Below are positions 4,422-43,055 of a DNA stretch of 51,464 nt, in pieces. A program made the position numbers and the translations under genes. Position 1 is the stretch's first letter. Every line of letters starts with the position of its first letter. Under the pieces are notes generated by a model. The model ran no database searches and was not told the DNA's origin. It saw nothing but the letters and a program-made list of their open reading frames with translations. Source of the DNA: Polynucleobacter meluiroseus (lineage in GTDB: Bacteria; Pseudomonadota; Gammaproteobacteria; Burkholderiales; Burkholderiaceae); NCBI GenBank assembly GCA_945901245.1, contig CAMDKY010000010.1, positions 1 through 51,464 on the forward strand. Reading direction: 5' to 3'.

Positions 4422-4497
4422 GGGCGCTTAGCTCAGTTGGTAGAGCGTCTGCCTTACACGCAGAATGTCGGCGGTTCGAGCCCGTCAGCGCCCACCA
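4422..4497 (+). tRNA. tRNA-Val (anticodon UAC)
   Basis: A 76-nt cloverleaf can be drawn by hand. The acceptor stem pairs GGGCGCT with AGCGCCC, the anticodon stem pairs TCTGC with GCAGA around loop CTTACAC, and the T arm carries TTCGAGC. The anticodon TAC is at 4455-4457 and reads valine codons. The CCA end is encoded (4495-4497). It lies between lon and the ppiD-like gene. Confidence 0.96.
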
Positions 4498-4599: not shown

Positions 4600-6066
4600 A
4601 TGCTAGATTCCATCCGTCAGCACCGGCGATTCATGATGTTCTTTGTATTGGTGTTGATTGTTCCTTCCTTTGTTTTTTTTGGCGTATCAGGTTATACGGA
4701 TTTCTTTGAACAAGAAACCGACCTCATCAAGGTCAATGGTAAGGCCATTACCGCCCAAGAGGTCGACAATTCAGCCAAGCGGCAGTCTGAGCGGGTTGGC
4801 GCTAATTCCCAAATCGCCCAAAGTCTCCCATTTCGTCAAGCCGTATTGGATGAATTACTGCAGCAGCGCCTCTTGGCCTTTGCAGTGAACAAACTGCAGC
4901 TGCGCATTAGCGATCAAGCGCTGACCAAAAACTTAGCCACTATTCCAGAAATCAAGTCCCTATACAAGCCAGACGGTACTTTTGATAGTGCCCGTTATCG
5001 CCAGCTCCTAGCCAATGCCGGAATGACGATTGAGCAGTTTGAAGGCGGGCAGCGTTTTGACTTGATGATTCAGCAGTTTGTGACCTCTGCAGCGCGTACC
5101 GAGCTACCCGCACCCAAGATTGCCAATATCATTTCTGCCTTATACGAGTCGGAGCGCCAAGTGCAGTCAATCCAATTTACAGCGGCTGATTTTGTCTCCA
5201 AGGTAACGCCAACGGAGGCGGAACTTGAGGATTTTTATAAAGCCAATGCGCGCTTATTCGAAACTCCCGAGCGCATTGACATTGATTTTTTAGTGCTGCG
5301 CGCTGACCCCAAAGAGGATGCTAAAGCCTTTGGTGAAAAAGCCGATCAGTTTGCTAATTTGACCTACGATCAATCCGATAGCCTTAAGCCAGCAGCGGAT
5401 AAGTTAAAGCTGAGCATTCAGTCAGTAAAGGGCGTATCCCGTGGTGGTAAAGCGGGCTTACCGGCAGACCATCCGCTTAATAACCAAAAAATAGTTCAAG
5501 CCCTGTTTGGCGATGATGCATTAAAAAACAAACGCAATATTGAAGCTGTGCAGATTTCCCCAGGGGTCTTTGTATCGGCCCGTGTCACCCAGCTATTTCC
5601 ACCCGAAGTAATGCCCTTTAGTGCTGTTGCAAATGAAGTCAAGCGGCAAGTCACTTTACGCAGCGCTGAAAAGCTTGCGAGTGCTGCCGCAGCTGAGCGC
5701 TTTATTGCTGCTGAGAAAAATCCCTCTAGTGCCGCTGGATTTGGTGCTCCTGTTTGGGTATCACGCAATAAGCCTGCAAACTTAGTCGGCTCTCCACTGG
5801 ATGCGGTCATGGCTTTAGATCCAAGCAAGTTGCCCATGGTGATTTCTATTTCCAATCCGGGATCAGGTACGACCTTGTATCGCATTGATCAAGTACGTCA
5901 GCCTCCCGCAGCCGATGCCAAGATTCGTCAGGCTCAAGCTCAGCAGATTCAGGCCTTAGCTGCTCAAGCTGAATTCGTTGGTTTTATGTCCTACTGGCGC
6001 GATGAGGCCAATGTCAAGGTGATTAACCCCCTCAAGCAAGCGAGCGTAGGAAGTTCCGGGGGTTAA
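4600..6066 (+). CDS. ppiD: PpiD-like periplasmic chaperone (SurA-N type) apparently lacking the parvulin domain
   Basis: Inner-membrane-anchored periplasmic folding factor. The N-terminus has basic residues and one membrane segment (about residues 12-32), followed by a SurA-type chaperone domain (about 36-180). The distal part matches PpiD character, including a YDQSDSLKPAADKL segment near residue 255. In PpiD of E. coli and most betaproteobacteria a parvulin isomerase domain of about 95 residues lies before this segment. Here the strand ERIDIDFLVL (from about residue 224) is followed almost at once by it, and no parvulin motif is visible. Total length of 488 compares with about 620-640 for full-length PpiD. 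Position after lon and tRNA-Val fits ppiD synteny. Family assignment is firm; the gene symbol is by synteny and similarity. Confidence 0.85.
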   Translation: MLDSIRQHRRFMMFFVLVLIVPSFVFFGVSGYTDFFEQETDLIKVNGKAITAQEVDNSAKRQSERVGANSQIAQSLPFRQAVLDELLQQRLLAFAVNKLQLRISDQALTKNLATIPEIKSLYKPDGTFDSARYRQLLANAGMTIEQFEGGQRFDLMIQQFVTSAARTELPAPKIANIISALYESERQVQSIQFTAADFVSKVTPTEAELEDFYKANARLFETPERIDIDFLVLRADPKEDAKAFGEKADQFANLTYDQSDSLKPAADKLKLSIQSVKGVSRGGKAGLPADHPLNNQKIVQALFGDDALKNKRNIEAVQISPGVFVSARVTQLFPPEVMPFSAVANEVKRQVTLRSAEKLASAAAAERFIAAEKNPSSAAGFGAPVWVSRNKPANLVGSPLDAVMALDPSKLPMVISISNPGSGTTLYRIDQVRQPPAADAKIRQAQAQQIQALAAQAEFVGFMSYWRDEANVKVINPLKQASVGSSGG

Positions 6067-42260: not shown

Positions 42261-43055
42261 ATGAAACCACTCTCCCAATTTGCCCTTTCGACTGCCTGTG
42301 CAGCCCTATTGATTAGCCCCCTCGCCTCGGCACAAAATGCTGCGATTGTGAATGGCAAGCCCATACCCAAGGCGCAATTGGACCGCCTGATCCAAAAGTC
42401 AGGTCAGCCCAATGATCCCCAAGTTCGCGAAAAGGCCCGTGAAGTACTGGTTACGCGCGAGCTGGTCATTCAGGAAGCCAATAGCCGCGGGCTTACCCAA
42501 AAACAAGACGTCAAAGATAAGATTGATCAATCACGCATTGGTGTTTTGGTTGCCGCCGTGTTTGAAGACTTTGTCGAGCGCGAAGGCGTAACGGAGGCAG
42601 AACTCAAAGCGGCGTATGCCTCTATACAGGCGGATTACACCGGTAAAGAGTATCAAGTGAAGCATATTTTGGTCGAAAAAGAAGCCGATGCGAACGCCCT
42701 TATTGCAAAGATTAAAGCGGGTACCAGCTTCTCTGATTTAGCAAAACAGAATTCCAAAGACCCTGGGTCTGCACCCAAAGGAGGTGAACTCGGCTGGGTT
42801 GGCGATAAGTCATTGGTTCCTGAGTTTTCTAAGGCGATGGTTTCCTTGAATAAAGGCCAAATGACCGATAAGCCGGTGAAGAGTCAGTTCGGCTGGCACA
42901 TCATTCGGGTTGAGGATGTGCGCGATGCCAAGGCGCCTCCCATGGATGAAATCAAGGCGGAACTGAAGCAAATCTTAATTGCTGATGAAAACTGGCAAAA
43001 AGCCAAGTTCTCCGAGATGATGCAAAAGCTCCGGGCTAAGGCAAAGGTTCAATAA
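42261..43055 (+). CDS. Periplasmic parvulin-type peptidyl-prolyl isomerase
   Basis: A 264-residue secreted isomerase. A signal peptide (to about residue 24, LASA-QNA) is followed by a SurA-like N-terminal helical part (about 28-125) and a parvulin domain. The latter is recognised by [41 protein letters not shown] and [11 protein letters not shown] (about residues 130-225). It follows bolA in the conserved msrB-yciB-bolA order. In contrast with the isomerase-less PpiD-like protein at 4600, this one has an intact active domain. Confidence 0.94.

Follow-up and report, generated by a model that had tools for sequence, protein, structure and literature searches.

The PpiD-like gene at 4600..6066 of the window (the whole 51,464-nucleotide stretch of DNA from the freshwater bacterium Polynucleobacter meluiroseus analyzed here) poses two questions: has the encoded protein lost the parvulin domain of its relatives, as the initial annotation proposed from the sequence, and, if so, what does the shortened protein do? 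The features on which the answer turns are as follows, with residue numbers of the window protein.

4600..6066, + strand: PpiD-like coding sequence without the canonical parvulin domain (488 aa, open reading frame)
4624..4677, + strand: N-terminal helix, residues 9-26, likely membrane anchor (model helix with low pLDDT; analogy with E. coli PpiD)
4720..5148, + strand: SurA-like N-terminal part of the NC domain, residues 41-183 (PF13624, model helices, SurA structural matches)
5209..5628, + strand: retained degenerate parvulin-type unit, residues 204-343 (PF13145, model, profile match)
5272..5301, + strand: strand before the seam, residues 225-234 (model, alignment)
5308..5322, + strand: seam where relatives hold the parvulin insert, residues ~237-241 (5 residues versus 153-176 in 28 full-length proteins; edges alignment-dependent)
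5323..5385, + strand: helix after the seam (241-257 in the model) and the QSDSL segment (residues 258-262) (model)
5917..6006, + strand: C-terminal helix (residues 440-469) that should complete the NC domain (model; analogy with E. coli PpiD)

The ppiD locus and the missing domain

The SurA-like N-terminal domain PF13624 matches residues 1-160 of the window protein (Pfam, E 1.5e-34), and the best NCBIfam model is PRK10788 (PpiD) at 123.6 bits, short of the 493 that its cut-off requires; this model includes the parvulin domain that is absent from the window protein. Identity to E. coli PpiD is 24%. Upstream of the gene lie clpX and lon, the order in E. coli K-12 being clpX-lon-hupB-ppiD, and a tRNA-Val gene (anticodon tac, 4422-4497, + strand) stands between lon and ppiD, at the place of hupB in E. 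coli K-12. Directly 3' of ppiD, a MazE-type antitoxin (PF04014, 6148-6381, + strand) overlaps a PIN-domain protein (PF01850, 6378-6770, + strand), a pair that is likely a VapBC-type toxin-antitoxin. Matches in named genomes fall at 13 loci: eight in Polynucleobacter, four in MAGs (family or class level) and one, a distant match, in Magnetospirillum. A pseudogene, a frameshift or an assembly gap was ruled out, the frame and the gap being common to the genus, with few amino-acid changes. The dN/dS of the gene against three near relatives is ~0.03 (a fourth gave no value); since dS is saturated, this value is indicative only, and it hints at a coding sequence under constraint.

When the window protein is aligned with the full-length relatives of its family (n = 28, 627-659 aa), it proves to be 139-171 residues shorter, in keeping with the shortfall of about 140 first estimated, and many family relatives from other genera align to it as two blocks, ~1-237 and ~240-488. 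The length of the insert was counted between two fixed columns, residues 245 and 402 of the full-length relative L087: between them lie 153-176 residues in 28/28 full-length proteins, whereas the 72 short Polynucleobacter proteins (the window's own included, after exclusion of one fragment without a start and four at contig ends) have five residues in 68 cases, six in three and four in one. The spacing originally noted, a strand with QSDSL about 22 residues further on, is likewise borne out at ~23 residues, with the strand at 225-234 in the model and QSDSL from residue 258.

The piece that is absent from Polynucleobacter PpiD holds the canonical parvulin domain. PF00639 and PF13616 match L048 and L087 with E values of 2.7e-29 to 3.5e-32 (PF00639 at 277-372 and 276-371, respectively), the piece matches solved parvulins by sequence in full-length relatives, and in a model of L087 it matches 3gpk_A with Z 17.4 and an rmsd of 2.0 over 107 residues. 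Neither family appears among the matches of the window protein up to E 10, in a search where HMMER filters discard most hits above ~0.1. With the canonical domain absent, the window protein is classed as a variant within the PpiD group, not as typical of it. The initial picture of a PpiD-like protein that has lost this domain and conserved the rest is sustained.

The parvulin histidines, residues 276 and 366 of L087, are kept in 26/28 and 27/28 full-length family proteins, and 22 of 23 further full-length proteins from the order have both. E. coli K-12 PpiD carries isoleucine and leucine at these columns, and its parvulin domain is described as inactive owing to a change of a critical histidine in the accessible part of one study (PMC9797188, from work cited there). 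In the window protein the stretch that bears both histidines in relatives is absent. The paired histidines of the relatives make isomerase activity before the loss plausible, and Polynucleobacter may have lost an active parvulin domain.

The unit around the seam

An AlphaFold2 model of the window protein has a mean pLDDT of 81.8, with 85-94 over most of residues 181-430; its pTM is 0.46, and the domain arrangement is therefore uncertain. The helix at residues 9-26 is hydrophobic-looking and of low pLDDT. When the model is compared with the solved PpiD-YfgM complex (8zht_A), Z is 12.8 over 406 residues, but with an rmsd of 13.0. SurA and 8zht were also matched when solved structures were searched by profile; a single-sequence search of these structures with the window protein returned nothing useful.

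The initial statement that no parvulin motif is seen requires qualification. It holds for PF00639 and PF13616, and it does not hold for PF13145 (Rotamase_2), which scores 31.9 bits (cut-off 27) over residues 204-343, so that a parvulin profile does formally match, on a degenerate unit around the point where relatives carry their insert. Structure prediction divides in the same way: the canonical domain is absent, and residues ~223-339 still match parvulin folds, the best being the PpiC-type 3gpk_A (rmsd 3.0 over 99 residues), whose Z of 9.2 is little above the 7-8 common between unrelated models. Further matches are to S. aureus PrsA (residues 219-331, Z 8.5) and to 2kgj, the parvulin domain of E. 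coli PpiD itself (residues 221-339, Z 6.2).

Compared with the canonical parvulin profile, residues 204-343 give a probability of 96 and a score of 59.7 over 130 columns (best of 20 column shuffles, 30.0), a match driven in large part by a 30-residue helix-strand motif that alone gives a probability of 96 and occurs twice in relatives. Residues 221-339, without the leading helix, give a probability of 0.35, which is not significant, and the third unit of full-length relatives reaches 21 over 11 columns. Comparing the profiles of the outer and third units gave 0.58, with 0.22 and 0.06 for two NC-domain controls. The C-terminal part of the outer unit scores 16.1, where the best shuffle reaches 16.3; rejoined to the leading helix it scores 87.6, which we read as mostly due to the helix-strand motif. 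Because the scores are this weak without the motif, we do not call the outer unit a parvulin on sequence grounds.

In full-length relatives the canonical domain is inserted within the degenerate parvulin-type unit, so that both are present side by side. A similar architecture has been predicted for E. coli PpiD, in which four domains are distinguished (NC, second, third and parvulin), the second and third having a similar fold and the parvulin domain lying within the third (PMC9643414, in the part accessible to us). Taken together with the matches of the retained unit, this arrangement indicates that only the inner unit was lost: Polynucleobacter PpiD retains the degenerate host unit but no longer has the canonical unit inside it.

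Distribution of the short form and its probable repeated loss

The short shape is genus-wide and not order-wide. A PpiD match was found in 177 of 186 Polynucleobacter genomes, including all 144 good ones, and the nine genomes without a match are 56-87% complete; comparison across the genus thus finds the short form throughout. Among the Polynucleobacter matches listed, read by eye, none is split by an insert, although the match in G154 ends at residue 215 and that in G047 reaches only 244, so that these two say little on this point. In a sample of the order, PpiD lacks the parvulin domain in 7/120 genomes: three Polynucleobacter, all three genomes from family f17 and a single one from f43. No convincing PpiD was seen in G428 or G475, the gene of G462 is divided between two contigs, and the remaining best matches listed continue across the parvulin domain. 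That the whole order has the short shape, an alternative raised at the outset, is ruled out, as most order genomes keep the domain. Of 94 genomes sampled across the class, 81 have a match beyond E 1e-40, and among these an open frame below 600 aa occurs only in the window's own genome and in G542, whose short PpiD is also without the parvulin domain. Retention of the domain in nearly all other sampled genomes suggests that it usually matters. Within the window's own family, eight further proteins of 516-524 aa (L106-L113, from two further genera, g21 and g22) have no canonical parvulin domain.

In a tree of 78 tips built from the shared core without the seam, the 14 Polynucleobacter tips group together (support 1.0), as do the three f17 tips (0.999), and Polynucleobacter PpiD is nested among full-length PpiD. 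The smallest clade joining Polynucleobacter and f17 holds 48 tips, 31 of them full-length. The f17 proteins (L142-L144) group with full-length L153 and L167 (support 0.968); the nearest neighbour of Polynucleobacter is full-length L105, at a node with a support of only 0.403. The f43 protein, L145, has a full-length relative, L146, in its own family. The g21/g22 node has weakly supported neighbours (0.126 and 0.908), which leaves the deep placement of these groups weak. The scars also differ: Polynucleobacter has 4-6 residues at the seam and f17 is about as tight, g21/g22 have 41-43 residues there, and L145 and L169 have kept a linker. On the simplest count, similar losses would have occurred in four other lineages (f17, g21/g22, L145 and L169), making five overall.

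Probable function of the shortened protein and comparison with known systems

We consider it probable, at roughly three chances in four, that the window gene is a PpiD orthologue encoding a membrane-anchored periplasmic holdase at the Sec translocon, without the isomerase domain. In the course of events that we propose, the inner canonical parvulin unit would have been removed in frame in an ancestor of Polynucleobacter, at a point between the first strand and the first helix of the degenerate host unit; the host unit would then have closed up, the SurA-like NC domain and the outer units staying in place, and the shortened PpiD would dock to YfgM and SecYEG and act as a selected, isomerase-free holdase. 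Chaperone activity, docking to YfgM/SecYEG and absence of isomerase activity are what we infer from the tight seam and genus-wide presence, the low dN/dS, the model, the clpX/lon neighbourhood, a YfgM-type gene and an engineered E. coli counterpart; the PRK10788 score below cut-off, the low pTM, the wide retention of the domain in other genomes and the lower levels of the engineered protein count against this reading.

The engineered counterpart, PpiD-deltaParv, restores growth of an fkpA ppiD surA mutant, and its protection of citrate synthase exceeds that by intact PpiD about 2-fold (PMC2956729, available part). The same source gives lower levels for it, judges it less stable and finds slightly weaker surA skp complementation, so that the parvulin domain may help stability; it also describes a SurA chaperone core of N- and C-terminal parts that is active without parvulin domains. 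As for the partner, the YfgM family PF09976 is matched in the window's own genome (C46, E 6.0e-46) and in 16/16 genomes examined, over most of the profile in 15. Natural PpiD without a parvulin domain was the subject of no report found in the open-access literature, subscription papers being mostly outside the scope of that search.

DsbA has been predicted to dock on the parvulin domain of PpiD (PMC9797188, available part), and we therefore examined co-loss of the domain with the disulfide system. A DSBA-family match is present in 15/15 genomes and DsbB (PF02600) in 11/15. DsbB was not found in the window's own genome or in 3/3 f17 genomes, although DSBA-family proteins are present there; the DsbB-negative genomes are the own genome G000, G379, G425 and G466. 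The DsbB match is partial (~82 of 148 positions) in Polynucleobacter G007 and G013. It covers most of the profile in Polynucleobacter G065, G041 and G123, in three genomes with full-length PpiD, and in G238, G206 and G405, all with parvulin-less PpiD. The pattern is mixed, and no simple link of parvulin loss with the disulfide system was seen.

The strongest alternative is neutral erosion, in which a single chance deletion in a small genome removed a domain that could be spared, and the shorter protein works no differently. We would give this somewhat less than an even chance, and as to the role of the protein it is compatible with the holdase explanation. The E. coli domain is reported to be inactive and removable (accessible parts of PMC2956729 and PMC9797188), and parvulin-less genomes are modest in size (1.2-3.4 Mb for those from the genus search and 1.3-2.7 Mb for the rest); against this, such loss is found in at least four other lineages, the relatives keep both histidines, and many similar-sized genomes keep the domain. 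The arguments from size and lineage are not strong either way. A broader generalization, which we advance only tentatively and think rather unlikely, is that PpiD would be built of nested parvulin-type units, the innermost, histidine-bearing one being detachable and dropped by at least five lineages, in two cases at a near-identical tight strand-to-helix seam, to give a pure translocon holdase, with the losses adaptive.

It is highly unlikely that substrate or proline binding passed to the degenerate unit at residues 204-343, an isomerase-like role being relocated and not lost: the unit does pass the PF13145 cut-off and match parvulin folds in the model, but it draws no report from PF00639 or PF13616, its profile match is not significant once the leading helix is removed, its best Z is little above values often seen for unrelated models, and full-length relatives carry it as well, beside the canonical domain. 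Elsewhere in the window, a stand-alone PpiC/PrsA-like parvulin protein of 264 aa is encoded at 42261-43055 (+ strand); this and a two-parvulin SurA-like frame are the only parvulin frames seen in the genome (assembly 93.75% complete). That the PpiD domain split off to become this separate gene is scarcely credible, as the PpiD model does match it (NCBIfam, profile positions 246-380, 86.2 bits) but PRK00059 (109.5 bits) and PrsA (94.1 bits) match better, it has weak SurA_N matches of its own, and the four relatives whose PpiD has kept the domain also possess stand-alone parvulin frames of about this length.

Because the E. coli copy is reported inactive and removable, the role of the PpiD parvulin domain is disputed, and a genus without it beside relatives with both histidines is a natural experiment on its purpose. 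The compact PpiD of Polynucleobacter would also be useful for studying the PpiD-YfgM-Sec complex.

With E. coli K-12 PpiD (b0441; 8zht) the window protein shares the SurA-like NC domain, the nested outer domains, the gene order clpX-lon-(one gene)-ppiD and, probably, an N-terminal anchor helix; it differs in having no canonical parvulin domain, and at the locus tRNA-Val replaces hupB. With SurA, and its parvulin-less core, it shares structural matches and a core made from N- and C-terminal parts, whereas SurA is specialised for outer membrane proteins (PMC2956729, available part) and the window protein has a predicted anchor and nested degenerate units. The proteins of f17 and g21/g22, L145 and L169 are likewise PpiD frames without the canonical domain, at separate places in the tree, and all of these except f17 differ from Polynucleobacter in keeping a linker at the seam. 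The closest parallel is PpiD-deltaParv, a PpiD without just the parvulin domain, of which Polynucleobacter PpiD is the natural counterpart: chaperone activity is reported for the engineered protein (PMC2956729, available part), while the Polynucleobacter form is natural and genus-fixed, has lost ~150 residues including linkers, and belongs to a group in which, unlike in E. coli, the parvulin domain still has its two histidines.
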